Positions 3,172 to 56,058 of a DNA stretch of 64,000 nucleotides are shown here, one piece after another. Numbering within the stretch: position 1 is the first letter of the stretch; every line of letters starts with the position of its first letter. The stretch lies in NCBI GenBank assembly GCA_025766275.1, contig JAFKAC010000008.1, forward strand, positions 1,426,001-1,490,000, given 5' to 3'. Origin of the DNA: Lactarius indigo (Eukaryota > Basidiomycota > Agaricomycetes > Russulales > Russulaceae). Under the pieces are notes generated by a model. That model was given only the letters and a program-made list of their open reading frames with translations. It had not been told where the DNA came from and did not search any database. The position numbers were made by a program, and so were the translations under genes.

Positions 3172-3850
3172 CTATAAACCTGGTCGTGACTCAAGGTGCT
3201 TAGGACCAGTGCAGATCAGGCTGGGCTTATGTCATCAACTTCCTAAAGGGGAAATCCGAAATCGGAGTTTGAATTTCGCTCTCCGACAATCATGTGATTA
3301 CCCTGTCTTTCCAAGTCACATGTGTATGTACACGTGTACCAATCAACAGTTGATCATTTATCGATCAACAAAGATAATCAACCAAGTCACAAGGAACACA
3401 TGTATCGATCATGGGTTCTGCAGCTGCTGTGGAATCAAGCCACTATGGCACAATATGGCGTCATTGACTGCGGTGCAGTTGTACCATGCTTATCCTTTAT
3501 TCTGATTGGACAGTATTAATGGTTATCTCTGGAATGTTCCAATCCACAGTATTGCGCAGCACTCGTGGACAGGCCCTAAGCCTGCCCTAAACCTACGCAC
3601 AGACCACCCCCTGTAGTATATAAGCTAGCACAATCTATTGGACAGTCCCTCAGACTGTCCACTTGTGACATCCTCCTTCTTGCCTCTCAGCTCCTTCGAG
3701 TGCCCCACTCATTGTGCACCACTACTCCTCTTTGAGCCAAGAACGTACCTTGTGTTCTTCTGCCCTCCTGTGTCACTCCTCCACACCCTCTACAGCCCCC
3801 AGTCCCTGCCTTTGCCGTGACCCCCTGTTAAGTGACAGTGAGTCATCACA
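3172..3850 (+). repeat. LTR B, 5' LTR of B2
   Basis: A 679-bp LTR from TGTCATGAACC to GTGAGTCATCACA, homologous to the B1 LTRs but clearly diverged, with many transitions. TATATAAG and the AGACTGTCCA start segment are retained. A GTGAGT donor begins at 3838. Confidence 0.88.
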
Positions 3851-3891
3851 CTTGGACAGTCTCACCAATAGACTGACTCCGGGCTGCCCCA

Positions 3892-4257
3892 GTGACTGAC
3901 TACAACTACAAGTACGACTTCTCGCAGTATGGTCAGTGGGACGGAGATTCTGCCAGCTACCAGTCAGAGTTCAACAACCAAGGTAGCCCCCTCAACTTCT
4001 CCCACACTTCCCCTGTTCCCTCCACCTCTGCTGTCCATCTTGACAGCCCCCACTTTACTACCCCCTACACTCCTGCCACATTTGGTAGTAGGGAACCCCC
4101 CACCCCTGTTGCCCTTGTTCGGGACGCAACCCCTGAACTAGTTTACCCTCACACTCCGGCTGAAGAAGCCACCCCCCATCCTTCCCCTCGACCCCTGTCC
4201 CCTAGCACTGCCCAGTTCTACAAAGAGGTCCTCAAGATTTTCAACCTCAACAGGAAC
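3892..4257 (+). pseudogene. B2 ORF1, first part
   Basis: This is the N-terminal part of the family B ORF1 protein (TDYNYKYDFSQYGQWDG...), a Tyr/Gln/Ser-rich start followed by Pro-rich sequence. There is no ATG. The frame opens at an AG|TG junction at 3892 that matches a predicted 3' splice site (intron 3838-3892). Reading is cut at 4257 by B1, with GGAAC duplicated, and continues at 14113. Confidence 0.75.
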
Positions 4258-4959
4258 TGTCACGAACCTATAAACCTGGTCGTGACTCAAGGCGCTTAGG
4301 ACCGGTCCGGAACGGACCGGGCTTATGTCATCAACTTCCAAAAGGGGAAATCCGAAATCGGAGTTTGAATTTCGCTCTCCGAAGGTCACATGATGCGTCA
4401 CGTGATTACCCTGTCTTTCCAAGTCACATGTGTACATGCACGTGTATCAATCAACGGTTGATTGTTTATCAATCAACGAAGATAACCAACCAAGTCACAA
4501 GGAACACGTGTCCTGATCACGAGTTCCGCAGTTGCTGCGGAATCGCACCACTATGGCGCAATATGGCGTCATCGACTGCGGCGCAGTCGCACCATGCTTA
4601 TCCTTTATTCTGATTGGACAGTATTAATAACTTATCTCTGGAATGTTCCAATCCGCAGTATTGCGCAGCACTCGCAGACAGGCCCTAAGCCTGCCCTAAA
4701 CCTATGCACAGACCACCCCCTGTAGTATATAAGCTAGCACAATCTATCGGACAGTCCCTCAGACTGTCCACTTGTGACATCCTCTCTCTTGCCTCACAGC
4801 TCCCTCGAGTGCCCCGCTCTTCGCGCGCCACTACCTCTCTACTGAGCCAAGAGCATATCTTGCGTCCTTTTGTCGTCGAGCACCTCTTCTCCACACCCTC
4901 TCAGCCCCCAGTCTCTGCCTACGTCGTGACCCCCTGTCGAGTGACAGTGAGTCATCACA
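4258..4959 (+). repeat. LTR B, 5' LTR of B1
   Basis: A 702-bp LTR from TGTCACGAACC to GTGAGTCATCACA, nearly identical to 13406-14107. It contains a TATATAAG box (4726-4733), a predicted transcript start at AGACTGTCCA (4761-4770), and a predicted splice donor GTGAGT at 4947, 13 bp before the LTR end. Confidence 0.95.
4726..4770 (+). promoter_or_regulatory. TATA box and predicted transcript start of B1
   Basis: TATATAAG at 4726-4733 lies 35 bp upstream of AGACTGTCCA (4761-4770). The latter is complementary to the primer binding site. If transcription starts at this A, as the spacing suggests, the RNA 5' end can anneal to the primer binding site. The same arrangement is kept in B3 (TATATAAG about 50386, AGACTGTCCA 50421-50430). 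Confidence 0.6.
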
Positions 4960-5001
4960 CTTGGACAGTCTAACCAATAGACTGACTCCGGGCTGCTCCA
5001 G
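4947..5001 (+). other. predicted intron 1 of B1 (contains primer binding site; creates ORF1 ATG)
   Basis: The donor is A|GTGAGT (4947) and the acceptor CCAG|TGGCTGAC (ends 5001), giving 55 nt. Joining the terminal A of the leader to TG makes the ATG that ORF1 otherwise lacks. The same donor and acceptor are kept in B2 (3838-3892) and B3 (50600-50655). The intron spans the LTR end and the primer binding site, so spliced RNA would lose the site. Confidence 0.6.
4962..4971 (+). promoter_or_regulatory. primer binding site of B1 (self-priming type) within a hairpin
   Basis: TGGACAGTCT starts two bases after the LTR and is the exact reverse complement of AGACTGTCCA at 4761-4770. Its 3' half also forms a local stem: CAGTCT (4966-4971) pairs with AGACTG at 4979-4984. 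That hairpin is kept in B2 and B3 with different loop bases. It could compete with primer annealing. Confidence 0.65.
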
Positions 5002-6263
5002 TGGCTGACTACAACTACGAGTACAACTTCTCGCAGTACGGTCAGTGGGACGGAGATTCTGCCAGCTACCAGTCAGAGTTCGACAACCAAGGTAGCCCCC
5101 TCGACTTTTCCCGTACTTCCCCTGTCCCCTCCACCTCCGCTGTCCGTCTTGACAGCCTCCGCTTCACCACCCCCTACACCCCCGCCACCTTCGGTGGTGA
5201 CGAGCCCCCTGCCCCTGTTGCCCTTGTTCAGGACGCAACCCCCGAACTAGTCTACCCCTACGCTCCGGCCAAAGAAGCCACTCCTCATCCATCCCCTCGT
5301 CCTCTGTCTCCCAGCACCGCCCAGTTCTACGAAGAGGTCCTCGAGATCATCGACCTCAACGGGAACGTCGTCCCCTTGTCCCCTGAACCCTGTGCCGAGT
5401 CTGCACCTCCCCTCCGAGTCCCGACCCCCTGCCCTCCTGTTTCCCTTCGTGGCTCTCCTTCACCACCTCCTGTTCTTCCTCCGACTCCTCATCACTCTCC
5501 GTCTCCTGTTCTGGTCCCCTCCCGCCTTGCAACCCCCGACTCGCCGATTAACTACGAGCGAGTAGCAGAACAAGGCCCCGTCTTTCTTCTGGCCCCTCAC
5601 CCCGACCAGGAGAACCTTCCCCCGCTTGGCGCCACCGCTTACCAAGCCCCTCCTTGTCTCCTTCACCAAGGAGAACACCCCCACCAGTACATTGCTGTCA
5701 TCACCCCCCAAGGAGAATCTTGGCGGCCCGCCTCCATCACACTCCGGGAACTGATCACTAAAGTTCCCCTCGCCACCTCCCTCGTTACCTTTCCCCCGAT
5801 CTTCCCTTCCGTCACCCCCTTTCATCTTCTTCCCCCTCACGTCTACACCCTCTTCCCGCGCATTGTTGACCCTGCTCAACACCCCGACTTCCCCCCCCTG
5901 TACGTCTGTTCCAAGGCCATCTATGACCTTCCCTCCCCCGACACCCCCTTTGGGACTATCCGCTACGACTTCAGGGAAGGCCTGAGACGTGTCTTCACCC
6001 CCCTCACTAACGTCCACAGGGCAGGGTACATTGACTCTCTAGTAACCCTAGAGATCCAGGACTTTTTGGACGGAAGGATTGTTACCACTTACGGACATTT
6101 ACACTTTTCTTTTAACGGACAAATCTACGCTTACCACCAGGCCTATTTCTTTGAGGACTTGGTTCGTTCTGCCCCCCACCTTCTTGCTTACTGTCTCTCA
6201 CCTCGAGTTCCTGCCGACCCCTTTAGTTTCATTTCCACCTTTCCCAACGACCAACCACTTTAG
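5001..6263 (+). CDS. B1 ORF1, unknown Pro-rich protein
   Basis: A 420-residue frame of unknown function, placed before gag. The first codon in the DNA is GTG. It probably becomes ATG by splicing (intron 4947-5001). Residues 1-30 are rich in Tyr, Gln and Asp, and residues 35-190 are rich in Pro, Ser and Thr. The last 200 residues are more ordered and better conserved among B1, B2 and B3, with a SPINY motif and the blocks QAPPCLLHQGEHPH, ITPQGESW and GYIDSLVTLEIQDFLDGRI. No signal peptide or membrane segment is apparent. The TAG stop at 6261 lies in the loop of a perfect 8-bp hairpin. I do not recognise the family; it may act with Gag or be a regulatory protein. Confidence 0.7.
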   Translation: MADYNYEYNFSQYGQWDGDSASYQSEFDNQGSPLDFSRTSPVPSTSAVRLDSLRFTTPYTPATFGGDEPPAPVALVQDATPELVYPYAPAKEATPHPSPRPLSPSTAQFYEEVLEIIDLNGNVVPLSPEPCAESAPPLRVPTPCPPVSLRGSPSPPPVLPPTPHHSPSPVLVPSRLATPDSPINYERVAEQGPVFLLAPHPDQENLPPLGATAYQAPPCLLHQGEHPHQYIAVITPQGESWRPASITLRELITKVPLATSLVTFPPIFPSVTPFHLLPPHVYTLFPRIVDPAQHPDFPPLYVCSKAIYDLPSPDTPFGTIRYDFREGLRRVFTPLTNVHRAGYIDSLVTLEIQDFLDGRIVTTYGHLHFSFNGQIYAYHQAYFFEDLVRSAPHLLAYCLSPRVPADPFSFISTFPNDQPL

Positions 6264-6308
6264 ATAAGTGGTTATATATTTGCCTTGTCTTGAAACGAGT
6301 GTTTTAAG
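6253..6308 (+). promoter_or_regulatory. two hairpins after ORF1 of B1
   Basis: The first is AACCACTT (6253-6260), loop TAGAT, AAGTGGTT (6266-6273); the loop contains the ORF1 stop TAG. The second is CTTGAAAC (6289-6296), loop GAGT, GTTTTAAG (6301-6308), with one G-T pair. In B2 the second stem is nine perfect pairs (15625-15646, loop GAGT), and in B3 it is nine pairs with one G-T (51945-51966, loop AAGT). Confidence 0.6.
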
Positions 6309-6319
6309 TGCAACGCAAA

Positions 6320-6371
6320 GTAAGTAAGTGTTTACTTATTTGAGTTTTGGACTTAAATTGAGTGATTTAAG
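6320..6371 (+). other. predicted intron 2 of B1 (creates ORF2 ATG), with 3' hairpin
   Basis: The donor is CAAA|GTAAGT and the acceptor TTTAAG|TGCC, giving 52 nt. The equivalents are 15660-15711 in B2 (52 nt) and 51979-52026 in B3 (48 nt). In all three the upstream exon ends in A and the downstream exon starts with TG. A hairpin, ACTTAAATT (6351-6359), loop GAGT, GATTTAAGT (6364-6372), covers the acceptor. Confidence 0.6.
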
Positions 6372-7354
6372 TGCCTCCTTCTACTCCATTCACCTTCAAC
6401 TTATCTGAAGAACAAAGGCTCGCGCGAGCCCGAGTTAACTTCAAGTCCCACAGGCAGCGGCAACTTGACCACTACTACCCCATCACTTCCACTTACGACC
6501 TCATCGATAACCCCCGTCTTGACTGTTGGACAGAACCCCCCACCGCCTTATGTACCCTTATCGACCTCTTTGACTTCAGAGAAGTCATCCCTGAAAGGGT
6601 TTATCACGAGTTTATTGACGATCTTTCTGAAGTCGTCAAGGCTGCTGACGAGCAACTCCTTTATTGGCATCTTTCGAACTCTGCCTCTGCCACCAATCAT
6701 CCAACAGACCAACTCCTAGTGTGGACCAAGAGCGACTATCTTTGGTTTGTCCACATTCCCCCTCGTCGAGACCACTACATTCGGCAACTAGAAGACGGCT
6801 TCTCTCTTCATTACGTTGACCGACTCCGCCTCACGTACCAGGAAATACAGATTTCCTTTCAAGAACTTCGAGTGGTCATTCACCCCAACTCTGCCCCCCG
6901 TTTAGTTATCTCCGATAGTTCGGAGCTCACTTATTCCTTCACCACCTCTCTGTGGGAAACTACCTTGTCCAACCCTGACCGAAACCTCGTCAACCCTAGT
7001 AACTGGCACTACCCCCCTTCAACCTCTGACGACCCAGAGTTAGTTTCGATTCTCAACGCTAGAGAAACTTTCCGGACTCTGCCCCTGCTCCACCGAATTA
7101 CAGATCAGCTACCCCCTAGTTCCCCTGAAACTGAAGACGAATCTTCAGATTCCAACATCTCCCTACACAACGGGGATACCAACCAGCCACCTAGTCCAAA
7201 CGACGGTTGGGGACCAACTCTGACCTCAGGCCCCTATTGGTGCTCTCAAGAAGTCTGCACCTGCGGTTATCGTCCCAACACCCCCCCGACACCCCCCAAC
7301 ATAGTGTTGTGGTCCCCTGGAGTTAACTATCTACCTTATAGAGAAAAGGTCTAG
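6371..7354 (+). CDS. B1 ORF2, unknown protein with Cys-rich C-terminus
   Basis: A frame of 327 residues between ORF1 and ORF3, unrecognised. It opens at AG|TG directly after intron 2 and has no ATG in the DNA. The N-terminus (LSEEQRLARARVNFKSHRQRQ) is charged and probably helical. The middle has conserved blocks such as LLVWTKSDYLWFVHIPPRRD and FQELRVVIHP. Near residues 290-300 there is a C-x4-C-x-C cluster (WCSQEVCTCGY) that could bind metal, followed by VLWSPGVNYLPY at the end. B2 and B3 keep the same blocks but carry stops. The TAG stop at 7352 sits in a stem pairing 7326-7333 with 7352-7359. The function is not known. Confidence 0.68.
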   Translation: MPPSTPFTFNLSEEQRLARARVNFKSHRQRQLDHYYPITSTYDLIDNPRLDCWTEPPTALCTLIDLFDFREVIPERVYHEFIDDLSEVVKAADEQLLYWHLSNSASATNHPTDQLLVWTKSDYLWFVHIPPRRDHYIRQLEDGFSLHYVDRLRLTYQEIQISFQELRVVIHPNSAPRLVISDSSELTYSFTTSLWETTLSNPDRNLVNPSNWHYPPSTSDDPELVSILNARETFRTLPLLHRITDQLPPSSPETEDESSDSNISLHNGDTNQPPSPNDGWGPTLTSGPYWCSQEVCTCGYRPNTPPTPPNIVLWSPGVNYLPYREKV

Positions 7355-7363
7355 ATAGTATAG

Positions 7364-7402
7364 ATTGTCGAGATAAATTTTACGAGTGTAAAATTTGACA
7401 AT
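7364..7402 (+). promoter_or_regulatory. GAGT-loop hairpin between ORF2 and ORF3 of B1
   Basis: AAATTTTAC (7375-7383), loop GAGT, GTAAAATTT (7388-7396) form nine perfect pairs. This is extended by ATTGTC (7364-7369) pairing with GACAAT (7397-7402) across a 5-nt bulge. B2 keeps both stems (16694-16733). B3 has a different, shorter hairpin here (ACTTTT, loop GCTG, AAAAGT, 53050-53065). Confidence 0.65.
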
Positions 7403-7492
7403 TTTCCAAGTCAAATCCTGGATCCAATTCATTGGGCAATTAACCTGGCATCATCACACGTCGCCCAAAGAAGAACTTGTCGACACTTCCAA

Positions 7493-8086
7493 GTGGACGA
7501 TCGGCCCATCGCCTCCACCCCTAGTACCCCTGTTACCCAAAGAAGGGCCCCCAGAGCTCGTCGAGCTACAAACACCCAGATTCCCCTTCCGAGTATTAAC
7601 CAAGCCGGTCCAAGTGAACCGGTGTACCCCAGTATCCAAGCAACCCCGACTGCAAGGCAGCATTCCACGAGCAGCGACGAAGCTCAGTATCTTGAGACCC
7701 AACCCCGAGAAATCCATTGTCATCTCCCTGAAGCTATCCTAGTAACCAAGAGCCTACCAACCCGAACCCCCCGAGAACTCGACGTGTTCAGAAGGCACTG
7801 TTCTTTGTTGTACCAAAACCGGCACAATCTTGAAACCCTGTACTTTTCCCAGCTGCTTACGCGCATAAGCGAGGTTTCGACAAGCCCTTTGTATTTCCAA
7901 GACTTCTTGTGGAGAAGTAAAACAACCCTGACCCACTTTGGTATTTGGGAAGAATACCATTGGATCCGTCGTTCACAAAGACCCCATCGTCCGGATAGAG
8001 CTATCCTCCTCCCCGCGTACAAAGTCTACTACCCCTGGAACCTGGACAGTTGGACTGTCACCCGTCTCACCAGAAGAGGTGAATGA
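7493..8086 (+). CDS. B1 ORF3, unknown basic/aromatic protein
   Basis: A frame of about 197 residues, unrecognised. It starts at CCAAG|TGGACG, again an acceptor-like AG|TG with no ATG. The donor for this junction is uncertain: the shared LTR donor, or GTGTAA inside the GAGT hairpin. Residues 17-26 are strongly basic (RRAPRARRAT). The C-terminal half is rich in Trp, Tyr and Arg (FLWRSKTTLTHFGIWEEYHW). The TGA stop overlaps the gag start as ATGA (8083-8086), which suggests termination-reinitiation. B2 and B3 keep the order but separate the stop and start by a few bases. Confidence 0.62.
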   Translation: MDDRPIASTPSTPVTQRRAPRARRATNTQIPLPSINQAGPSEPVYPSIQATPTARQHSTSSDEAQYLETQPREIHCHLPEAILVTKSLPTRTPRELDVFRRHCSLLYQNRHNLETLYFSQLLTRISEVSTSPLYFQDFLWRSKTTLTHFGIWEEYHWIRRSQRPHRPDRAILLPAYKVYYPWNLDSWTVTRLTRRGE

Positions 8087-8520
8087 ATACACAGCGACCT
8101 CTCACACCAGAAGAAAAAGCCCACATCCCAGTATACTTCTTCGACCCCTATTTTTCTCTCACCGATAATCTTTACTACGCCAAGTGGAAAGAGGAGGACA
8201 TCTCTAGCCCTACTGGAAAACACCCATGGACGATTGTTGCCACCCAACACCAACTTGTTTTTCAAGACCTTAAGGAAGCCTTTCCGGGTATCGACAAAGT
8301 TGAAAACATAAACTACAACGCCCTACACGCCACCTTCAAGGGAAAGAACGTCCGTTGGAACCTTGTAAACGAACAGTGGATCTACTTAAACAACAAACCA
8401 GTCCACTTCAACACACCTAGTCAATCCGAAGATTCAGACAGCGACACAGAAGAAGTATCGCAAATCCTAGACACTACTACCAAAATACTCTCTGGTCTAC
8501 TATCCCAAGTAACCTCCTGA
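8083..8520 (+). CDS. gag: B1 gag, N-terminal part
   Basis: This starts at ATG 8083 (MNTQRPLTPEEKAHIPVYFF) and runs 145 residues to TGA at 8518. It is the matrix-like N-terminal region of Gag, with blocks HPWTIVATQHQLVFQDLKEAFPG and NLVNEQWIYLNN and an acidic Ser/Asp stretch. The TGA is in frame with the capsid part that follows. B2 has CGA and B3 has CAA at this codon, so the stop is a single C to T change at a CpG. The ancestral gag is one frame, 8083-9633. Confidence 0.75.
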   Translation: MNTQRPLTPEEKAHIPVYFFDPYFSLTDNLYYAKWKEEDISSPTGKHPWTIVATQHQLVFQDLKEAFPGIDKVENINYNALHATFKGKNVRWNLVNEQWIYLNNKPVHFNTPSQSEDSDSDTEEVSQILDTTTKILSGLLSQVTS

Positions 8521-9633
8521 CCCTCGACACCTCAGATCTCTCCTAGTACCACCGGCCCAAGCCGTTTCCCTGCAGTAGTTCCCCCACACCGACTCCCATC
8601 ACCACCCCTAACTATTCAAGCCTCTTCCTCAGCACCCCCTTTATCCGTTCCCCCTGTACCCACCGCAATGGCAGCCCCTGCACCTGCAAAAATTTTAGGC
8701 GCAGCACCTGAGCCCTTTGATGGCAAGCCCAACAATGCTGAGGCCTTTTGGAACAACCTGGCCAATTACTTCCATCTAAACCAGGATATCTTTAACACGG
8801 AGGATAAAAAGATATCCGCTGCCCTTACTTACTTCAAGGTTGGGACCTCAGCTGGAGAATGGGCTCAGGATAGGCAAAAGAAGGCCTTAAACCCGACCGG
8901 TGGTGCCGCAATTTCCTTTGGCACCTGGGCGCAGTTCAAAACCGACTTTGATGCACACTTTGTTCCTGGTCACACCGCTATGGAATCCACCAACAAAATG
9001 TATTCTCTAAAGATGGGGACCCGACCTTTCAATGAATGGTTTCAAGAATGGTCAACCCATGCTATGCGAAGTGGTGCAAACGAACAAACCAAGATGTATG
9101 CTTTCCGACAAGCTATCCCAACGGCTCTAAACATGAAGCTGCTTGGCATATCCCCCATCCCTACCACCTTCGACACCCTTGTTGAGAAAGCAAGAGAATT
9201 CGATCGCGCCTATCGAATTTATGCTGGTCATGCCATTAACCAGTTTAACAAAACCCATAAGCCTACTTCAGGACGAGCAGTCCTAGCAGAGGACGATAGC
9301 GTAAATGTCAACGCCTCCTCATCACATACTACCAAACCAAGAGCCAAACTTACCAAGGAAGAGCGAGAGTATCGCTTCAAGAATAAACTCTGTCTGTACT
9401 GTGGCAAACCAGGCCATGTACTTAAAGAATGTCACACCAAGACGGCAGCCATGAAGGCCAAAGGAGGCCAATCCAACAACAACGCTAGGGCGCGTGGCGC
9501 CTTTGTTGATGAACCAAGTCAGGAGGAAGCACCTGCTGACCACCCAGCAAACATTGGAGCGGTATATCGAGAGATACTCCCCTTTGACCCGGACGTACGT
9601 CCGCGTTCGGTGCCTATTAATGAGGATTTTTAG
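8521..9633 (+). CDS. gag: B1 gag, capsid and nucleocapsid part
   Basis: This is in frame with the preceding part, with an internal ATG at 8668 (MAAPAPAKILGAAPEPFDGK). A Pro/Ser-rich linker is followed by a retrotransposon gag capsid domain (EAFWNNLANYFHLNQDIFN to about residue 190 from 8668). A CCHC knuckle CLYCGKPGHVLKEC lies at residues 242-255 from 8668, followed by an Ala/Asn/Gly tail. It ends at TAG 9631 in the string GATTTTTAGG. Pol lies in the -1 frame and overlaps here. B2 has CAG at this position and reads five codons further. The protein would form the particle shell and package RNA. Confidence 0.88.
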   Translation, partial: PSTPQISPSTTGPSRFPAVVPPHRLPSPPLTIQASSSAPPLSVPPVPTAMAAPAPAKILGAAPEPFDGKPNNAEAFWNNLANYFHLNQDIFNTEDKKISAALTYFKVGTSAGEWAQDRQKKALNPTGGAAISFGTWAQFKTDFDAHFVPGHTAMESTNKMYSLKMGTRPFNEWFQEWSTHAMRSGANEQTKMYAFRQAIPTALNMKLLGISPIPTTFDTLVEKAREFDRAYRIYAGHAINQFNKTHKPTSGRAVLAEDDSVNVNASSSHTTKPRAKLTKEEREYRFKNKLCLYCGKPGHVLKECHTKTAAMKAKGGQSNNNARARGAFVDEPSQEEAPADHPANIGAVYREILPFDPDVRPRSVPINEDF

Positions 9634-9650
9634 GCTCTTCCATCGTAGCA
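9622..9650 (+). promoter_or_regulatory. gag-pol junction, predicted -1 frameshift site
   Basis: Gag reads GAT TTT TAG, and pol continues in the -1 frame as TTA GGC TCT, so a slip on the T run at TTT would join them. In B2 the string is GATTTTCAGG and gag ends 15 bases later. In both copies pol is -1 relative to gag. The T run is short, and no downstream pseudoknot was established by eye. Confidence 0.5.
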
Positions 9651-12377
9651 CTGTCGATTGGAAGTATTCGTGCCAGTAGCATTGTACATGGCCTTTCCTT
9701 ACTAGAGACGCTCGGAGCCGAGCATGTACCTGAAGAAACAATTTGGAATAGGAGAGCTCCTTCAATTGTTCTCAGAGTTACACTAGTAGGAAAGAAGTCT
9801 GGCAAAGAAATCAGTGCCCGTGCCCTGTTGGACAGTGGTGCAGAGGGCATCATCGTGGATGATGGGTTTGCGCGAGCAAACAACCTAACAATGAGGACAC
9901 TAATTAAACCCTTACCAGTTAGAAATGTGGATGGGTCTCCCAACAAGACGGGATCTGTTAGGTATACAACAATCCAAAGACTACGGATCAGAACTTCCGA
10001 CGATAACTACCACGATGAAACCATGGAACTTTATGCAACCACTCTAGGGGAGCACGATATAATATTAGGAACAGATTGGCTCCAAGCACATAACCCAGAA
10101 ATTGATTGGCTTCAACCAAGAATAGCCTTCACCAGATGTCCGAAAACCTGCACCCTATCTTCCTCAGCAGTCATCATCTCTTCAAGAACACCACAAACGC
10201 AACATACGACTATTAACATCCTCGAACTTGACCTGAACCAAGAAACCTGTCTCCCCGTGAACGAAGAAATTGAACCCCTGGAACCTACCTTCATCCAAGA
10301 TGCCTACGAACCCTGGCTGTGGATTCACAGCTTTAGCAAATATGACCACCTTGCCATCCGAGCAAAGGTAACTACAAGCACCAAGATAGCAGCATGCACT
10401 GCACCCAAGCCTTCCACCGACCACATTCCGAGTCATTTCCAACGTTACACCAAAGTATTCAGTGAAATCGCGTCCCACCGACTTCCCCAACACCAACCTT
10501 GGGATCACGCAATTGATCTCAAGCCAGGAGCCACTATGAAGAATTGTGGTATTTATCGACTTACACCTAAGGAATCTGATGCCCTCAAGGAGTACATTTC
10601 TGAACACCTGAAGAAAGGTTACATTCGACCATCTAAGTCACCCATGGCCTCCCCCTTCTTCTTTGTTGACAAGAAGGATGGCAAACTCCGCCCTGTGCAA
10701 GACTACCGCGCCCTCAATGATATAACCATCAAAAATGCAGCACCACTCCCCCTTATCCCTGAACTCATTGACAAACTTCATGGCACCCATTACTTCACCA
10801 AACTGGATATTCGTTGGGGTTACAACAATATCCGCATCCGCGAAGGCAATGAATATAAAGCAGCCTTCAAAACATCTTTGGGACTTTTCGAGCCTACAGT
10901 AATGACTTTCGGCCTCTGCAACGCCCCTGCCACGTTCCAAACATTCATGAACCAAATCTTCGAGCCCTTAATCGACGGTGGACATGTAGTGGTCTACCTC
11001 GATGACATCTTGATCTTCACAGAAGATATCTCCTCACTCACAGCGTTAACGCACGACGTGCTTCAACGACTGGAACACCACGACCTCTACCTCAAACCTG
11101 AAAAGTGTACGTTTGCACAAACCTCGGTTGAGTACCTCGGAATAGTCATTTCCGATGGCCAAGTTTCTATGGACCCTGCAAAAGCTGCGGGCATTACTCA
11201 ATGGCCCACTCCACATACTGTTAAACAAGTACAGGCCTTCCTGGGCTTTTGCAATTTCTATCAACGCTTCATTAAAGACTACTCCACTATCGCCCGCCCC
11301 TTGTTTGACCTAACCAAGAAAGATGTCCCCTTTTCTTGGGGTACCGTGGCGGAAAGCGCTTTCCGCACCCTGATCGAATGCTTCACCAAGGCTCCTGTCC
11401 TTGCCCTGCCTGACCATTCCAAACCTTTCCGCCTCATCACCGATGCTAGCGACTTTGCTACCGGTGCCATTCTCGAACAACCTGATGCCTTGCAACGTTG
11501 GCACCCCGTCGCCTTCCTTTCCAAATCCCTCCTTCCTGCTGAACGCCACTATGAAATTTGCGACAAAGAACTCCTCGCCATCATCCATGCCCTACATGCT
11601 TTCTGCCACTACCTGGAAGGACGCGATGACCTTACTGAAATCTGGTCTGACCATGGCAACCTTGTCTATTTTACCACGAAGCAGAAACTTTCCCGCCGAC
11701 AGGCCCATTGGGCCCTTTTCCTCTCTCACTTCCGGTTCATCATCATCCACAAGCCTGGAACGCAGAACAAATCTGATGCACTGTCTCGGCGTCCAGATCA
11801 TAAAAAGGGGATAGCAGATGAAGATGAAAAGCAAGTGCTCCTGGACACCAAGTATTTTTCCATCAATGCAGTACAAAGAACTGCAGTAACCATTCAAGGA
11901 GATACCACCCTCCGGCAGCGTATCAAAAACACCCAGACCTATGACAAGGAAGTCAGCATGGCCCTGGAGTCCCTCCTAAAAAATGGTCCTCGATCCCTAG
12001 CTAAAGGACTAGAAGAGTGGAACTTAGAAGACGGCATTATCTTGTTCAAAGGACAAGTCTATGTTCCCAAAGATGACAACCTACGAAGGGACATCGTCAA
12101 AACATACCACGACCACATCGCCACAGGACACCCAGGACGATGGAAGACCTATGAGTTAATATCCCGAGACTTCTGGTGGCCAGGCATATCAACATTCGTT
12201 AAAACCTATGTCGATGGTTGCGCCACATGTCAAACCACTAAAATCAAACCACGTACCCAAGTACCCCTACAACCAAATGCAATACCTGAAGAAATATGGG
12301 GAACCATCACAATGGACTTCATCACCGACCTTCCCCTATCCCACAACTACGATTCACTATTTGTAGTGGTTGATTGA
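9630..12377 (+). CDS. pol: B1 pol: protease, RT, RNase H, integrase N-terminus
   Basis: This frame has no ATG and is expected to be reached by -1 frameshift from gag. The aspartic protease motif LLDSGAEG is at about 9825-9848. RT starts near 10540 (SPMASPFFFVDKKDGKLRPV), with the catalytic YLDD at 10995-11006. RNase H holds ITDAS near 11440, HYEICDKELLAI near 11548 and the DALSR end. The integrase zinc domain (HDHIATGHPGRW to CATC) is at about 12100-12235 and the first integrase Asp (TMDFITDLP) near 12315. A TGA at 12375 (VVVD-stop-LSK) ends the frame. B2 has the same stop at 21702, while relatives of this family normally have Arg. Apart from this, the frame is intact. Confidence 0.9.
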   Translation, partial: LGSSIVALSIGSIRASSIVHGLSLLETLGAEHVPEETIWNRRAPSIVLRVTLVGKKSGKEISARALLDSGAEGIIVDDGFARANNLTMRTLIKPLPVRNVDGSPNKTGSVRYTTIQRLRIRTSDDNYHDETMELYATTLGEHDIILGTDWLQAHNPEIDWLQPRIAFTRCPKTCTLSSSAVIISSRTPQTQHTTINILELDLNQETCLPVNEEIEPLEPTFIQDAYEPWLWIHSFSKYDHLAIRAKVTTSTKIAACTAPKPSTDHIPSHFQRYTKVFSEIASHRLPQHQPWDHAIDLKPGATMKNCGIYRLTPKESDALKEYISEHLKKGYIRPSKSPMASPFFFVDKKDGKLRPVQDYRALNDITIKNAAPLPLIPELIDKLHGTHYFTKLDIRWGYNNIRIREGNEYKAAFKTSLGLFEPTVMTFGLCNAPATFQTFMNQIFEPLIDGGHVVVYLDDILIFTEDISSLTALTHDVLQRLEHHDLYLKPEKCTFAQTSVEYLGIVISDGQVSMDPAKAAGITQWPTPHTVKQVQAFLGFCNFYQRFIKDYSTIARPLFDLTKKDVPFSWGTVAESAFRTLIECFTKAPVLALPDHSKPFRLITDASDFATGAILEQPDALQRWHPVAFLSKSLLPAERHYEICDKELLAIIHALHAFCHYLEGRDDLTEIWSDHGNLVYFTTKQKLSRRQAHWALFLSHFRFIIIHKPGTQNKSDALSRRPDHKKGIADEDEKQVLLDTKYFSINAVQRTAVTIQGDTTLRQRIKNTQTYDKEVSMALESLLKNGPRSLAKGLEEWNLEDGIILFKGQVYVPKDDNLRRDIVKTYHDHIATGHPGRWKTYELISRDFWWPGISTFVKTYVDGCATCQTTKIKPRTQVPLQPNAIPEEIWGTITMDFITDLPLSHNYDSLFVVVD

Positions 12378-13394
12378 CTCAGCAAAGCAATAGTTATTTC
12401 CCCTTGCAACAAAACCATCACTGCAGACGAAACAGCCCAACTCTACCTTGAAAACGTCTGGAGACGTACTGGCCTACCTCGACAGGTTATTTCCGACAGA
12501 GGCCCCCAATTTGCATCAAAGGTCATGCAAGAAATTTGGAACAAACTCGGAGTCAAATCCACGCTATCTACAGCTTTCCACCCACAAACCGATGGAGAAA
12601 CTGAACGTGTCAACCAAGAACTTGAACAATACCTCCGTGTCTTCTGCAACTTCCAACAAGATAACTGGGTAGATCTAATCCCATTCATGGAATTTGCACA
12701 CAACGCCCGACAACATAGCGCAACCCACAAATCACCCTTTGAGGTTTGGTATGGATACAAACCAGAGTTCATCCCCCCCACCCACTTCACCACCAAAATA
12801 CCTGCAGCTGAGGAGAGACTAAATGCGCTAAATCAAATCCGCTCCGAAGTTACCGCAGCCCTTAAGGTAGCAGCGGAAGTCATGAGAGGGTCGAAAACAC
12901 CCACCCCCTCTCACGAATTCAAGACAGGCGATCTAGTCTGGCTGGAAGGAACCAACATCCATACTACCCACCCCAAAGCTAAACTTGCCCCACGACGCCA
13001 CGGCCCCTTTAAAATCCTTTCCACCTGGGGAGTTAATTGCAAACTCCAACTTCCAAAAACATGGCGCATTCACCCAGTCTTCCACAACTCCTTGATCTCC
13101 CCGTACAAAGAAAACACTACACATGGACCCAACTTCACCAGACCACCCCCTGAAATCATCCAAGGGGAAGATGAACACTACGAAGTTGAAAAGGTCCTGC
13201 AATCCAAGGTATCGCCTAACAAGAAGGGCATACTCTACTTGATCAAGTGGAAGGGGTATCCTGATTCGGAGAACTCCTGGCTCCCCTCCTCCCAAATGAC
13301 CCATGCGCAAGACCTTGTTAGCCAATTTCACAAGGCCAACCCCAATGCCCCTAAGCCAAAGACAACCAGTGCTAGTGGAATAGCACGACGTTAA
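12378..13394 (+). CDS. pol: B1 pol continued: integrase core, C-terminus and chromodomain
   Basis: This continues in the same frame after the TGA. The second integrase Asp is in VISDRGPQFAS (about 12490) and the catalytic Glu in TDGETERVNQ (about 12590), so the triad is complete. The GPF/Y-type C-terminal segment (HGPFKILSTWG) is near 13000. It ends with a chromodomain (EHYEVEKVLQSK ... YLIKWKGYPDSENSWLP, about 13165-13330) that in chromoviruses directs insertion to marked chromatin. TAA is at 13392. It would need readthrough of the stop at 12375 or help in trans. Confidence 0.88.
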   Translation, partial: LSKAIVISPCNKTITADETAQLYLENVWRRTGLPRQVISDRGPQFASKVMQEIWNKLGVKSTLSTAFHPQTDGETERVNQELEQYLRVFCNFQQDNWVDLIPFMEFAHNARQHSATHKSPFEVWYGYKPEFIPPTHFTTKIPAAEERLNALNQIRSEVTAALKVAAEVMRGSKTPTPSHEFKTGDLVWLEGTNIHTTHPKAKLAPRRHGPFKILSTWGVNCKLQLPKTWRIHPVFHNSLISPYKENTTHGPNFTRPPPEIIQGEDEHYEVEKVLQSKVSPNKKGILYLIKWKGYPDSENSWLPSSQMTHAQDLVSQFHKANPNAPKPKTTSASGIARR

Positions 13395-13402
13395 AAAGGG
13401 GA
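13393..13402 (+). promoter_or_regulatory. polypurine tract of B1
   Basis: AAAAAGGGGA overlaps the pol stop and lies three bases before the 3' LTR. It primes plus-strand synthesis. The same tract precedes the B2 and B3 3' LTRs. Confidence 0.8.
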
Positions 13403-13405
13403 TAC

Positions 13406-14107
13406 TGTCATGAACCTATAAACCTGGTCGTGACTCAAGGCGCTTAGGACCGGTCCGGAACGGACCGGGCTTATGTCATCAACTTCCAAAAGGGGAAATC
13501 CGAAATCGGAGTTTGAATTTCGCTCTCCGAAGGTCACATGATGCGTCACGTGATTACCCTGTCTTTCCAAGTCACATGTGTACATGCACGTGTATCAATC
13601 AACGGTTGATTGTTTATCAATCAACGAAGATAACCAACCAAGTCACAAGGAACACGTGTCCTGATCACGAGTTCCGCAGTTGCTGCGGAATCGCACCACT
13701 ATGGCGCAATATGGCGTCATCGACTGCGGCGCAGTCGCACCATGCTTATCCTTTATTCTGATTGGACAGTATTAATAACTTATCTCTGGAATGTTCCAAT
13801 CCGCAGTATTGCGCAGCACTCGCAGACAGGCCCTAAGCCTGCCCTAAACCTATGCACAGACCACCCCCTGTAGTATATAAGCTAGCACAATCTATCGGAC
13901 AGTCCCTCAGACTGTCCACTTGTGACATCCTCTCTCTTGCCTCACAGCTCCCTCGAGTGCCCCGCTCTTCGCGCGCCACTACCTCTCTACTGAGCCAAGA
14001 GCATATCTTGCGTCCTTTTGTCGTCGAGCACCTCTTCTCCACACCCTCTCAGCCCCCAGTCTCTGCCTACGTCGTGACCCCCTGTCGAGTGACAGTGAGT
14101 CATCACA
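13406..14107 (+). repeat. LTR B, 3' LTR of B1
   Basis: A 702-bp LTR nearly identical to 4258-4959. It is followed by the target duplication GGAAC (14108-14112), after which B2 ORF1 resumes. Confidence 0.95.
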
Positions 14108-14611
14108 GGAACGCTGTCCCCTTGTCCCCTGAACCACGTGCCAAATCTGTGCCTCCCATCCGTCTTCCCACACCCTGTCCCCCTCTCCCTTCCCACGCAG
14201 CAACCACCCCTCATGCCTCTCCTTTGCTACCTATTGACACTCCTCCGTGTCCTCCTTCTCCCTCGCCTCCTCCAGTTGCCTTGCGGCCTCCCACCCTGGA
14301 CTCCCCTATTAACTACAAGAGGGTAGCTGAACAAGCCCCTCCTTTCCCACACCCCAACCAGGAGAATCTCCCTCCTGTTGCTGCTGCCACCTACCAAGCC
14401 CCCCCTTGTCTCCTTCACCAAGGAGAACACCCCCATCTGTACATTGCCATCATCACCCCCCAAGGAGAATCTTGGTGCCCCACCTCCACCACACTTCAGG
14501 AACTGATCACTAGAGTTCCCCTTGCAACCTCCCTTGTCAATTACCCCCCAGTATTCCCCTTGGTCACCCCCTTTCGTCTCCTTCCCCCTCATATTTACAC
14601 CCTCTACCCCC
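14108..14611 (+). pseudogene. B2 ORF1, second part
   Basis: This continues the piece at 3892-4257: Pro-rich sequence, then SPINYKRVAEQAP, QAPPCLLHQGEHPH and ITPQGESW, as in B1 ORF1. It stops at 14611 in CCCCC, where a solo LTR C is inserted, and continues at 15168. The frame is open through this piece. Confidence 0.75.
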
Positions 14612-15162
14612 TGTTGATAAGTGACCCTTGCGCACTTAGCGGCTCTAACGGACCGGACTTACAGATATGGACTGCTGTAGATTAATTAGGACCGCTTTAG
14701 ATTAGATTTAATTTGATCTGTACAATCTAGGACTTCTATGACATCACTGTACAATGACATCATATGGACTACTCCGGACTCTTCATTGTACTCCTTCCTT
14801 TGTTCTCTTTGCAGCGTTATCTTTATTGTGATGTCACTATGATATCATACTTGTCTAGACTTTCTCTTGTTCTGGTCGCCTTGTTCTCCTTTGGTACATT
14901 CCTTTTGTCCTGTATGTAGAACAACGCTCCTTGTATTCTGTGACTCTATGTTACTGTCCTTGTACTAGTGTCACACCTCTGTATAGTATAAGTAGAGTAC
15001 TCTGTATGCCCTGGTCCACATCAGTTCTCACTCTGTTGTGTGCCAGACTCCCTGCTTTACTTGCAAGATCCCCTGTTACACCTCTGCTTCCAGCTACCTT
15101 CCATATCTCACCACAGTCCACTTGTCCACTGTGAGTATGGTCTTTATGTATGCTGTTCATCA
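14612..15162 (+). repeat. solo LTR C in B2 ORF1
   Basis: A 551-bp element from TGTTGATAAGTGACC to GCTGTTCATCA with a perfect duplication CCCCC (14607-14611 and 15163-15167). A TATA-like element (TAGTATAAGTAG) is near 14990. It lacks the 54-nt intron-like segment present in the copies at 35731 and 62574. No internal region is attached. Confidence 0.9.
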
Positions 15163-15624: not shown

Positions 15625-15712
15625 ACTTAAAACGAGTGTTTTAAGTCTCAACGCAAATAGTAAGTAAAGTTTACACATTTCAACTTGGACTTAAAGTTGA
15701 GGGATTTTAAGT
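15625..15712 (+). promoter_or_regulatory. GAGT hairpin and predicted intron 2 of B2
   Basis: ACTTAAAAC (15625-15633), loop GAGT, GTTTTAAGT (15638-15646) form nine perfect pairs. A predicted intron, A|GTAAGT (15660) to TTTTAAG|TGCC (15711), is 52 nt. A second hairpin (15689-15712, loop GAGG, ten pairs including two G-T) covers the acceptor. Confidence 0.55.
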
Positions 15713-16685: not shown

Positions 16686-16821
16686 ATAGTATTAATTGTC
16701 AAGATAATTTTACGAGTGTAAAATTTGACAATTTCCAAGTCAAATCCTGGATCCAATCCACTGGGCAATTAACCTGGAATCCTCACACATCACCCAAAGA
16801 AGAACTCATCATCACTTCCAA

Positions 16822-23161: not shown

Positions 23162-23417
23162 TGTTATTTGTGGCTAAAGCATCGCTGTTTTCACCTATTC
23201 TCTGACTGTACATTGCCCTAAGTGGAGTTACCTTATGTAGATATGCTTAGTCAGGTTCATATATCCTGCAGAGGACAGAAAATATGCCTTTAGTCTTATA
23301 TCCTCCTCTGCAGGTGAGTAACTAGTTTTACCTTGATCAATATAGTCTTATATCCCCCTCTGCAGTCCCCTTGTGTCCTCTGTCACTCAAGGGCCCTCTA
23401 TAGGTCGCATTCTAACA
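23162..23417 (+). repeat. LTR D, 5' LTR of copia element
   Basis: A 256-bp LTR from TGTTATTTGTGG to GCATTCTAACA. It contains two direct copies of a 23-bp segment ending in CTCTGCAG. The first is followed by GTGAGT and the second by TCCCC, so a 52-nt GT-AG segment lies between them. Confidence 0.9.
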
Positions 23418-48916: not shown

Positions 48917-49948
48917 CTGATGAAGAAGCTGTTGTCCCTCATGTATTCTGTGATGAGGACAGGAAGTGCAAGCCCATCACCACTATCTCCCCAAGTGAAG
49001 ACCTTGTCAGCATTCAGGGAGTTTTTCTGAGTGACCACAAGTGCATCGGCCCTACAGGCCTACAAGATGGAGGGTGGAGGAAGGTAGCAGTGAGTTGGCA
49101 GTGAGAGCAGATTGAATCAGCACAGTGGAGATTGAGTGACCTCAGGGAGCATCAGGAGCATTGGAGGATGCTGAAGCTAACAATGATGATGATGATTACT
49201 ACCTGGCATGCCACCCCCTCATCTGAACACATAGCCACCCTACTAATTCCAGGGCCACTCCATGGCTTATCCACACTGACAGCTCCCCCATGTATCAAGG
49301 ATATGTGCACATCAGCAGAGCCACACCACACACCCCCTTCACCCAACAAGACAACCCCACCAACTGCATGGTCCCAGAGGGGTTCCAGGTCAATCAAGGA
49401 CCCAATCACATTCCCTTCAGCATCATCCTCCTTGATGACACCACCCACACTATGAGCCACATCCAGATTATCATGGGCTCCAAACCCTTTGTCCTTAGCA
49501 TAGTGCCCAGGTCTCCCCATGTCAATATGGACTCCAACTTGTGTTTGTATGACTCATAGCCAGTTATGACTATGGCCTGAAGTATTAGTCATGGACATTT
49601 ACTCACATATCAGTCAGCATAGTAGTTCACATGTGATTTGTGACTCATGTATGACTCATTCCTAGGATAGCAGTACTAGGGTTTGAGCTAGTTATGCTAC
49701 TGGTTACCTATTGTTCAAGTGGCACTTTAAAGCTCACAAGTATCTGTATAAGTAGTAGCTGCAGATGACCAAGACTCCCCATCTTGGTCTTCTTCAATCC
49801 ACCATCTGAATCATCTCTTATCTGCCTAAGTCTCAGACTTAGTGTGCTTCTGCTTTGACTTACCAAGAAGTTGAGCCTCTTCATTATCTTTGCTGTGGTT
49901 GAATGCCATTGGGCTCCCATTCAGCCTGTGACATGTTGACATGTGGTC
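48917..49948. other. unassigned sequence, possible LTR-like part
   Basis: An open frame at about 49290-49556 (plus) is not recognised. From about 49560 the sequence looks like LTR DNA: TATAAGTAGTAG at about 49747, with CAAGACTCC some 25-30 bp downstream. I could not define its ends. It is the target of B3 (TGGTC, 49944-49948). Confidence 0.35.
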
Positions 49949-50613
49949 TGTCATGAACCTATAAACTCAGTTGTGACTCAAGGTGCTTAGGACCAGACCA
50001 GGCTTATGTCATCAACTTCCTAAAGGGGAAATCCGAAATTGGAGTTTGAATTTCACTCTCCAATGATCACATGATGTGTCACATGATTACTCTGCCTTTC
50101 TGAAGTCACATGTATATGTGCACATGTATCAATCAACAAAGATAATCAACCAAGTCATGAAGGAACATGTGTATCAATCACAGGTTCCGCAGTTACTGTG
50201 GAATCATGCTACAATGGCACAATATGGCGCCATTGACTGTGGCGCAGTTGTACCATGCTTATCCTTTATTCTGATTGGACAGTATTAATGGTTATCTCTG
50301 GAATGTTCCAATCCACAGTATTGCACAGCACTCATGGACAGACCCTAAGCCTGCCCTAAACCTACACACAGACCACCCCCTGTAGTATATAAGCTAGCAC
50401 AATCTATCAGACAGTCCCTCAGACTGTCCACTTGTGACATCTTCCCTCTCTTGCCTCCAAGCTCCTTTGAGTGCCCCACCTTGTGTGTGCCACTACCTTC
50501 TTCGAGCCAAGATGCCTCCTCTTTGCCCCCTCCGATGCTCCCTCCACCTCCATCTTGCCCACCATTGTCTCCAACCATATCCCTTGCTGTCGAGTGATAG
50601 TGAGTTCTCCACA
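49949..50613 (+). repeat. LTR B, 5' LTR of B3
   Basis: 665 bp, TGTCATGAACC to GTGAGTTCTCCACA. TATATAAG is at about 50386 and AGACTGTCCA at 50421-50430. The primer binding site TGGACAGTCT follows at about 50616. Predicted intron 1 is 50600-50655. Confidence 0.9.
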
Positions 50614-50654
50614 CTTGGACAGTCTCTTTAATAGACTGACCTTGGGCCTTCCCA

Positions 50655-51897
50655 GTGGATTCAGACTATGACTTCTTGCAGTTTGGACAGTGGGACAGAG
50701 ATTCCTGTAGCTACCAGGAATATGATCATTTCCAGGGTAGCCCCCTCAACTCCATTTTCACTCACTCTCCTGTAGCATCCACCTCTTGTCTTCTTCCTCT
50801 TCCTACCCTAAGTTTCTCCCCTCCTGTTATTCCCTCACCCATCCTAGAAAGTCAGGAAGCCACCCCTGAACTGGTGTACCCTGACCCTGAAGTCACCCCT
50901 CATCCCTCCCCTCATCCCATGTCCCCCAGTACTGCCCAATTCTACAAAGAAGTGTGCAAGATTATAGACCTCAATGGGAACATAGTTGAGCTCTCTTGCA
51001 CTCCATCCCCTGAACCACATGCTGAGTCTGCGCCCCCTGCTTGTCTCCCCACACCTCGTCCCCCTCTTCCTTCTCATGCAGCTACCACCCCTTGTGCCTC
51101 TCCTTTGTTACCTATTGATACTCCTCCACATCCTCCTTCTCCCTTGCCTCCTCCAGTTGCCTCATGGCCCCCCACCCCCAACTCCCCTATTAACTACAAG
51201 AGGGTAGCTGAACAGGCCCCTCCTGTCCCTCATCCCAACCAGGAGAATATCCCTCCTGCTGCCGCTGCCACCTATCAAGCCCCCCCTTGTCTCCTTCACC
51301 AGGGAGAACACCCCCACTTGTACATTGCTGTCATCACTCCACAAGGAGAATCTTGGCAGCCCACCTCTACCACACTCCAGGAACTGATCACTAAAGTTCC
51401 TCTCACAACCGCCCTTGCCAACTACCCCAGTTTTCCCCTCAGTTACCCCCTTTTGTCTCCTTCCCCCCCACATTTACACCCTCTTTCCCTGCATCATCAA
51501 CCCTACCCAGCACCCCAACTTCCCCCCCCTTTACATCTGCTCAAAGGCCATTTATGACCTTCCCTCCCCAGACACACCCTTTGGGACTGTTCGCTACAAC
51601 TTCAGGGAAGGCCTGTGGTGTGTCTTCACCCCCCCCCCCTAACATCCATAGAGCAGGGTACATTGACTCTCTAGTGACCCTAGAGATCCAGGACTTCTTG
51701 GACAGGAGGATTGTGACCACTTACAGACATCTACGTTTCGCTATTAATTGACAAATTTATGCTTACCACCAGGGTAACTTTTTTGAGGACTTACTTTGTG
51801 CCTCCCCCCACCTACTCACTTACTGCCTTACACCTTGAATCCCTGCTGACCCCTTTCCCTTTATTACTGCTTACCTTGACTCCCAACCCCTCTAGAA
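50655..51897 (+). pseudogene. B3 ORF1
   Basis: This starts at CCCAG|TGGATT, so splicing to the leader A would give ATG. It is open for 300 codons, then frameshifted near 51420 and in the C run near 51640, with a TGA at about 51749. It keeps SPINYKRVAEQAP, QAPPCLLHQGEHPH, ITPQGESW and GYIDSLVTLEIQDFL. It ends at TAG near 51895. Confidence 0.7.
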
Positions 51898-51944
51898 GTT
51901 AGCAAGGGGATGTATTTTTTTTAAAAATCAAAATTGCCTTGACC

Positions 51945-52026
51945 ACTTAAGACAAGTGTTTTAAGTTTCAACACAATAGTAAGTAAACAACTACTATTCT
52001 AAGGTCCTAAACCGAGTGGTTTTAAG
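51945..52026 (+). promoter_or_regulatory. hairpin and predicted intron 2 of B3
   Basis: ACTTAAGAC (51945-51953), loop AAGT, GTTTTAAGT (51958-51966). The predicted intron runs from A|GTAAGT (51979) to TTTTAAG|TGCC (52026), 48 nt. A second hairpin has AAACC (52009-52013), loop GAGT, GGTTT (52018-52022). Relative to B1, the pair T-G has become C-G. Confidence 0.5.
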
Positions 52027-53031
52027 TGCCCCCAGAACAACTTACTGAAGGACAAAGGCTAGCGCTAGCCCAAGCAAACTTTGAATCCCACAGACAGCAA
52101 CAACTTGAATGCTACTACCCTTCCACTGCCCTTGTCAACCTATCAGTGTTAAACAACATTGACTGTTGGACTGACCCCCCAACCATCCTTAACAAATTTC
52201 ACTACAACTTTGACTTTGGAAGGATACTAGGAAGAGAAGCCTATGAAACCCTTGTTGACTGTCTCCCTATTTTGGTAGACGACACACACAAACAACTCCT
52301 CTGTTGGCATCTTTCAGGTGCCATCACCACCACTAATAGACCAACCAACCAATACCTAGTCTGGACCAAGAGTGATTATCTCTGGTTCATCCACATTCCC
52401 CCTAGAAGAGAATGACTTATCAGAAGAATAGAAGAGGGGCATATGAGGTGATACATTAACTGAGTTCTCCTCAACTATAGAGAACTACAAATTAATTTTC
52501 AAGAACTACGAGTAGTCAGAGTCAGCAACTCCCCACCTTGCCTTGTCATTGTCAAAGGGAAGGAACTCTCTTATGCCTTCAGCACTGGAGTCTGGGAAAC
52601 AACCTTTACCAATCTGGACCAACCCCCAGTAAACCCACGAATTTTCCTTGAGCCCCCAGAGAGCCTGAAGACCCGGACCTAGTAGAACTCATACTAGCAA
52701 GAGGACAAAGATCCCCTTGACAACCTTCCTTACTCACCAGAATCACAGAACAGGACTGGGCCTCCAGCCCTGAATACTCCCCTCCTCCCCCAGATGAAGA
52801 AATCTCCCCACAAAACAGCAATGTTTCCCTCCATAACAGAGATACAGATGAAGAAGGTGCAACAGTAGTTGATACTTGGAACAACCTGGTCAATACCAAC
52901 CCTTGTTGGTGTTCAAACGAAGTTTGCACTTGTGGATTTAGACCAGCTATCCCCCCTACCCCTCCTAACGTTGTATTGTGGGCTCCCAAACTTAATTACT
53001 TCCCATACTGTGGAAGCATAGACGATTTTTA
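52026..53031 (+). pseudogene. B3 ORF2
   Basis: A diverged copy of B1 ORF2 with LTEGQRLALAQANFESHRQQQ at the start and YLVWTKSDYLWFIHIPPRRE in the middle, and stops from 52413 onward. The Cys cluster is kept (WCSNEVCTCGF), as are the last residues before TAG at 53029. ORF2 of this copy differs more from B1 than its gag does. Confidence 0.65.
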
Positions 53032-53200
53032 GAAATTTTGTTGGGACCTACTTTTGCTGAAAAGTGTTAAGTCACAACTTTAAGTGAAAAACCTGGGAAA
53101 ATTACACCTGTAAAACATCAACCTGGAACCCATCACAAACTGGGCAATCACCCTGGCATTTTCCCATTGCACCACAAAAAGGTGTCACCACCATCTTCAA

Positions 53201-53729
53201 GTGGACACCCATCCCCTAACTTCCACAAACACCACCCCAGTAATTCCAAGACAGACCCATCAACAAACCACTAGCCAAAACCCTGTCCCCAGTATAAACC
53301 AATCCAGCCCAAATGGACCTGTTTTCCCTAGTATCCATAGATGTCCCTAGACAACACACCACTAGTAGTGACAAAGCACAATACCTAGAAACCCAACCAA
53401 GAGAAATTTACTGTCACCTCCCCAAAGCAATCCTAGTGACCAAAAGTCTACCCACACAAACCCCCAGAGAACTCGATGTCTTCAACTGTCACTGCACCCT
53501 CCTATACCAAAACCAACACACTCATGAGACCTTATCCTTCGCCCAACCACTCACTAGAGCAACTGAAATTATCACCAGTCCCCTGTATTTCCAAGACTTC
53601 TTGTAGAGAAGTAAAACCATCCTAACCCACTTTGGTATTTGGGAAGAATATCATTGGATCTGCCAACAACAATGAACACATCACCCAGGTTGTGCCATCT
53701 TGCTCCCTGCCTACAAACTTAGTGTATGA
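53201..53729 (+). pseudogene. B3 ORF3
   Basis: This opens at CTTCAAG|TGGACA, the conserved acceptor-like junction. The middle block is recognisable (QYLETQPREIYCHLPKAILV, PRELDVFNCHCTLLYQN). TAG at about 53604 (TGG in B1) and further stops break it. Confidence 0.6.
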
Positions 53730-55347: not shown

Positions 55348-55412
55348 TGATGAATAGCATACATAAAGACTATACTCACAGTGGACAAGAGGACTGTGGT
55401 GAGATATGGAAG
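55348..55412 (-). repeat. 65-bp LTR C fragment at the B3 deletion joint
   Basis: TGATGAATAGCATAC ... GAGATATGGAAG matches the reverse complement of the end of LTR C (compare 15098-15162). It starts exactly at the LTR C terminus and joins directly to integrase sequence at 55413. A solo or full LTR C in gag followed by deletion explains it. Confidence 0.82.
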
Positions 55413-56047: not shown

Positions 56048-56058
56048 AAAGGGGATAC

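Follow-up and report, generated by a model that had tools for sequence, protein, structure and literature searches.

A Ty3-type retrotransposon of Lactarius indigo with conserved candidate splice sites that may create start codons for accessory genes in a nearly ATG-free zone

In Rice tungro bacilliform virus (RTBV), open reading frames (ORFs) I and II are reported to lack internal AUG codons over about 900 nt, with an AUU start for ORF I and a spliced RNA for P4 (PMC5902531). Foamy viruses and retroviruses are described as using full-length RNA for gag and genome and spliced RNAs for other genes (PMC7828637). The Drosophila MDG1 group carries sORF1 and sORF2, of about 70-110 amino acids, before gag, and its full transcripts are reported to give no sign of splicing (PMC11952523). 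Self-priming has been reported in the Tf1/sushi group (PMC6317226). Here, we describe B1 (4258..14107), a full-length chromodomain Ty3-type long terminal repeat (LTR) retrotransposon nested in an older copy, B2, in a 64,000-nt stretch of the Lactarius indigo genome (assembly GCA_025766275.1, contig JAFKAC010000008.1, positions 1,426,001 to 1,490,000). This stretch is referred to as the window; coordinates follow its numbering, and all features lie on its forward strand. Three accessory genes, ORF1 (5002..6263), ORF2 (6372..7354) and ORF3 (7418..8086), separate the 5' LTR from gag, and the gene translated would depend on where a ribosome first meets a start codon that it can use. The original prediction for this window held that none of the three has an ATG and that each opens at an AG|TG junction, where splicing supplies the missing A. 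The splice sites of ORF1 and ORF2, a nearly ATG-free zone and a CTG at the head of ORF3 are conserved among copies of the element. From this pattern we consider it probable that unspliced RNA is scanned to gag, that the AUG codons of ORF1 and ORF2 are made by removal of introns 1 and 2, and that ORF3 is reached through leaky initiation at CUG.

Searching the host genome (90.3 Mb, 291 contigs) with an ORF2-relative query gave 141 match rows, in which a fragmented copy counts more than once; many of the rows are full length and free of stops. Copies with stop-free accessory ORFs are present in the genome, although gag and integrase of B1 itself carry in-frame TGA codons. An alignment of 33 rows from leader to gag was built from B1 and 32 other loci, the latter comprising 29 of the top 30 hits from the ORF2-relative search and three loci from a second subfamily. 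They were selected from 34 separate ORF2 loci, numbered L039-L073 with L039 and L073 denoting a single place; this place and L070 were excluded, as the leader anchor was missing. At L073 (C24:155700-160300), the sequence ahead of ORF2 is a different one and includes a long open frame.

The predicted junctions were found in B1 where they had been placed: A4946|GTGAGT, CCAG|TG at 5000-5003, A6319|GTAAGT and TAAG|TG at 6370-6373. The last base of the leader exon and the GTGAGT donor (4946..4952) lie within the LTR, 13 nt before its end, and intron 1 (4947..5001) includes the LTR end and a putative primer-binding site (PBS, 4962-4971). Intron 2 (6320..6371) is delimited by an A|GTAAGT donor and an AAG|TG acceptor. 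Every position of the seven-base donor blocks and four-base acceptor blocks of ORF1 and ORF2 was invariant in 33/33 rows, which upholds the predicted constancy of A|GT and AG|TG for these two genes. Elsewhere, invariant columns numbered 645/1257 in the rest of ORF1, 401/978 in the rest of ORF2 and 31/47 in the rest of intron 1 (PBS included); the rest of intron 2 was the least conserved stretch measured (15/44). The introns measured 55-56 nt (intron 1) and 47-53 nt (intron 2), close to the 48-56 nt first proposed. Conserved sites and small introns support the proposal that joining A to TG would make an ATG for ORF1 and ORF2; for ORF3 it does not hold.

The same arrangement was identified in the other two copies of the window. 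In B2, the A|GTGAGT donor, intron 1 (3838-3892) and CAG|TG occupy 3837..3892, and the A|GTAAGT donor, intron 2 (15660-15711) and AAG|TG occupy 15659..15711. The corresponding blocks of B3 lie at 50599..50655 (intron 1, 50600-50655) and 51978..52026 (intron 2, 51979-52026). It had been claimed that B1, B2 and B3 keep all three junctions while differing greatly elsewhere. This is accurate for ORF1 and ORF2 and for the divergence of B3 (about 71% identity to B1 over 2.8 kb), whereas B2 is about 86% identical to B1, and the third site reads TG in all three copies yet in only 15/33 rows.

What the earlier reading overlooked is the near-total clearance of ATG, in all frames, from leader to gag. The coding strand of B1 holds 2 ATG between 4761 and 8082, against a Markov expectation of about 21. 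Over the 3124-3236 nt between leader donor and gag AUG, 16 of the 32 other copies are free of ATG in every frame and none of the others exceeds 5, against 26-39 ATG on the opposite strand. R-U5 was ATG-free in 41 of 46 occurrences and carried one or two in the other 5 (3' LTRs and overlapping loci included). Ten ATG are present in the B1 LTR ahead of a TATA-like box (TATATAA, 4726..4732), the final one at 4704; the ATG-poor zone begins past this box and ends at gag, bar the 2 ATG mentioned, and no ATG loss was observed in gag or pol. Codon-preserving shuffles of ORF1-3 gave a mean of 8.3 (L069) and 9.4 (L071) ATG, with 0 observed in each copy, and 0 ATG arose in 1/3000 shuffles for each (P about 3e-4 each). 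None of eight other triplets was depleted like ATG, the lowest being ATC (z -1.9 and -1.4), and AGT was over-represented. As originally stated, ORF1, ORF2 and the ORF3 then claimed contain no methionine, start or internal, in 419, 326 and 196 codons. Relatives of ORF2 have 8 internal methionines in 8976 residues (30/34 proteins, after removal of 4 fused gene models), and those of ORF3 have none in 2855 (13/13 proteins). Clearance in every frame fits the scanning of unspliced RNA to gag.

For ORF3, a start at the AG|TG of 7492-7495 was rejected, given that only 15/33 rows carry it, with AGTA in 16, AGCA in 1 and AGCG in 1. This site is a valine codon with wobble, and the homologous protein extends upstream of it (WAINLAS block). 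The gene likely starts instead at the CUG of 7418, with A at -3 and G at +4; the CTG and both context bases were found in 33/33 rows. The distance from this CTG to the next upstream anchor occurs in all three phases (14, 11 and 5 of the 30 anchored rows; 3 rows lack the anchor), whereas the phase downstream of it is constant (33/33). Other [AG]NNCTGG motifs upstream in the aligned stretch were absent from 18/33 rows, single in 13 and more numerous in 2. The equivalent CTG, with the same context, lies at 16747..16749 in B2 and 53123..53125 in B3. ORF3 relatives that reach this far mostly show Leu-Glu near the CUG place, in a somewhat shifted position.

All three accessory ORFs are under purifying selection. 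With the predicted spliced-in ATG, ORF1 would encode 420 and ORF2 327 amino acids, neither with an internal methionine. Ratios of nonsynonymous to synonymous substitution rates ranged from 0.04 to 0.26 over ORF1-3 in 8/9 comparisons, the ninth being saturated. Between B1 and the second-subfamily copies L069/L071 they were 0.17-0.18 for ORF1, 0.19 for ORF2 and 0.08 for ORF3 (one pair, the other being the saturated one), and between L069 and L071 they were 0.09, 0.26 and 0.04. Pfam gave no match for ORF1, ORF2 or ORF3; with respect to a possible envelope gene, the comparison covered Pfam for all three ORFs and fold searches for ORF2. ORF2, the sole accessory protein confidently modelled, had no significant structural match. 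Relatives of ORF1 and ORF2 that carry an organism name all belong to Lactarius. The joined start of ORF1 (SSD-M-SDYD) appears in the Lactarius gene models P0005, P0011, P0054, P0055 and P0058, and that of ORF2 (NAT-M) in P0005, P0011, P0012 and P0060. In another species, P0056 starts with MSHHTWTV, which corresponds to GTGAGTCATCACACTTGGACAGT with a GTG start, followed by LVSDYEYDF at the ORF1 start (protein only); this model appears to read through a retained intron 1.

Together, these features outline a probable scheme of expression. In well-kept copies, the unspliced RNA would contain essentially no AUG ahead of that of gag, which would let ribosomes scan as far as this gene, and the same RNA would be both genome and gag messenger. 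Removal of intron 1 would join A to TG, creating the ORF1 AUG, and would take out the putative PBS together with the end of the LTR; spliced RNA should thus stay out of reverse transcription. A putative self-primer, AGACTGTCCA (4761..4770), lies near the predicted transcript 5' end, 35 nt past TATATAA, and CTTGGACAGTCT directly follows the 5' LTR; its TGGACAGTCT (4962-4971) is the exact reverse complement of 4761-4770. This pair is a 10-nt exact complement in B1, and both motifs are present in B2 and B3. The ORF2 AUG would be generated by removal of intron 2, either alone, together with intron 1, or through a direct splice from the leader to 6372. On unspliced RNA, occasional initiation at the strong-context CUG would provide ORF3, with most ribosomes going on to gag.

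Four hairpins with a common CGAGTG tip (TGAGTG at one of them in B1) were also identified. CTGT[CGAGTG]ACAG (4934..4947) enters the leader donor with its 3' arm and has a stem of 4 bp in B1 and 8 bp in the second subfamily. CTTGAAA[CGAGTG]TTTTAAG (6289..6308) is located upstream of donor 2, and ACTTAAAT[TGAGTG]ATTTAAGT (6351..6372) overlaps the ORF2 acceptor, with stems that change in step between the subfamilies. TAAATTTTA[CGAGTG]TAAAATTTG (7374..7397) precedes ORF3 and is missing in the three second-subfamily rows. Folding z-scores ranged from -0.85 to -3.23 for the seven stretches folded. As a suggestion, the CGAGTG hairpins could mask splice sites. The complete combination, with two splice-made AUG codons, a third start at CUG, a 3.3 kb AUG-free stretch, unspliced RNA as both genome and gag messenger, and the hairpins as a possible switch, is put forward tentatively.

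Other explanations can be weighed against the same data. The original prediction had a single leader donor serving the distant acceptors at 5002, 6372 and 7494, each splice making an ATG. The leader does end in A, which would give A|TG at 5002 and 6372, and joining it to 6372 over 1.4 kb would also excise the PBS, which fits the absence of intron-2-less copies. The 7494 acceptor fails, with 15/33 rows, and a leader donor, while possible for ORF2, is not needed there, since a local donor that is unchanged in 33/33 rows lies about 50 nt before the ORF2 acceptor; as a general account we regard it as unlikely. Use of GUG on unspliced RNA, without splicing, is less probable still. The AG|TG of ORF1 and ORF2 reads GTG in the same frame, some relatives with an uninterrupted ORF (P0007, P0010) begin with V at this place, and near-cognate starts are reported in fungi (PMC7049704). 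Such starts would leave unexplained why 33/33 rows keep A|GTGAGT and A|GTAAGT unchanged at 47-56 nt ahead of them, and the ORF1 GTG of B1 has C at -3.

We give a low probability to ORF1, ORF2 and ORF3 being exons of one polyprotein, spliced in frame. ORF1 and ORF2 are fused in some Lactarius gene models (P0005, P0058), but each ORF has a separate stop, the relative frames vary between copies, fusion points vary among the gene models, and the N-terminus of relatives stays close to the junctions. It is very improbable that the shortage of ATG simply reflects nucleotide composition or a bias in amino acids and has no translational meaning. A first-order Markov model expects only 17-21 ATG, and methionine loss accounts for part of the deficit. 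Against this explanation stand the 26-39 ATG of the opposite strand, the 8-9 out-of-frame ATG of shuffled sequences compared with 0, the bounding of the B1 zone by TATA box and gag apart from 2 ATG, and the same lack in relatives with about 30-60% identity to ORF2 or ORF3.

Several observations also weigh against splice-made starts combined with scanning to gag. The 33 rows are related copies, some pairs near-identical, and do not represent 33 independent events. Tested per ORF, the shuffle result was weak in B1, with its 2 ATG (P 0.29 for ORF1 and 0.02 for ORF2), and L069 gave P = 0.02, 0.008 and 0.27 for ORF1, ORF2 and ORF3. ORF1 relatives, mostly fused gene models, have some internal methionines, with mixed counts. 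Upstream of the ORF3 CTG in B1, strong-context near-cognates other than CTG were not depleted (observed versus expected: ACG 5 vs 2.1, TTG 3 vs 2.3, GTG 2 vs 1.6), and 52 CTG between 4761 and 7417 place weaker near-cognates in the scanning path. In B1 and L069-L072, position -3 of the gag AUG is a T, and a 3.3 kb scan without initiation exceeds the 900 nt documented for RTBV (PMC5902531). No intron-less genomic copy was found for leader/ORF1, leader/ORF2 or intron 2, each of which was looked for; the absence of intron-2-less copies speaks mildly against an RNA lacking intron 2 only, because such RNA would keep the PBS. Gene models are not clean support for splicing, as other Lactarius models keep the intron, or fuse or frame-join ORFs.

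The remainder of B1 is that of a Ty3 chromovirus in its LTRs, target site duplication and domain order. The duplication GGAAC flanks the element at 4253-4257 and 14108-14112, and the 702-bp LTRs (5', 4258..4959, TGTCA...CATCACA; 3', 13406..14107) differ by 1 base. The gag gene (8083..9633) is interrupted by an in-frame TGA at 8518. The ORF at 8083 is its N-terminal part, in the same frame as gag in B1, and in 3/4 second-subfamily loci the equivalent ORF continues into gag without a stop as far as the retrieved sequence extends. The pol gene (9624..13394) encodes protease, reverse transcriptase, RNase H and integrase, in that order, plus a Tf2-type SH3 domain and a chromodomain, with an in-frame TGA at 12375 in integrase. 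Near a T run at 9617-9640, pol overlaps gag in another frame, and a frameshift is possible there. The third copy, B3, spans 49948-56760. A repeat of about 550 bp at 14612-15162 splits B2, with similar copies beginning near 30027, 30609, 35731, 43557 and 62574, and one of about 580 bp at 53957-54537 splits B3, with similar copies near 57586 and 59476. A 256-bp repeat occurs five times in the window (23162-23417, and at 28714, 33108, 38903 and 43032), with about 94-98% identity.

If the scheme is correct, four genes would be run compactly from one promoter, with splicing creating starts and selection erasing nearly all others. The element would be a natural test of AUG-free scanning distance and a source of protein families with almost no internal methionine, and the poor gene-finder calls of these ORFs (V starts, fused models) would be explained. 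By analogy, the closest known logic appears to be that of RTBV. As in RTBV and badnaviruses, accessory ORFs free of internal AUG precede the structural gene, and one of them may have a non-AUG start (here the putative CUG of ORF3). In contrast to those viruses, B1 is an integrating LTR retrotransposon with a chromodomain, its AUG-poor zone extends over about 3.3 kb, and splicing apparently makes two of the three starts. Caulimoviridae are not known to have LTRs or integrase; B1 has both and falls outside that family.

B1 shares with the Tf1/sushi group reverse transcriptase, RNase H, integrase, Tf2-type SH3 and chromodomain, and its LTR stretch complementary to the putative PBS resembles the self-priming reported there (PMC6317226); it differs in its three accessory ORFs before gag and a splice donor within the LTR. 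Accessory ORFs between the 5' LTR and gag are also found in the MDG1 group, whereas those of B1 reach 222-420 amino acids and are methionine-free inside. As in foamy viruses and retroviruses, full-length RNA would, in the proposed model, provide gag and genome, and spliced RNAs the other genes. Some retroviral donors sit before the PBS, splicing supplies the env AUG in Rous sarcoma virus, and splice-made start codons are known for single genes. Retroviral downstream ORFs mostly retain their own AUG, whereas the AUG of ORF1 and ORF2 in B1 would not exist before splicing. The titles and abstract openings of the literature surveyed do not describe this combination. B1 is an element of a known kind, and it is the combination of expression features, not the element type, that appears new.

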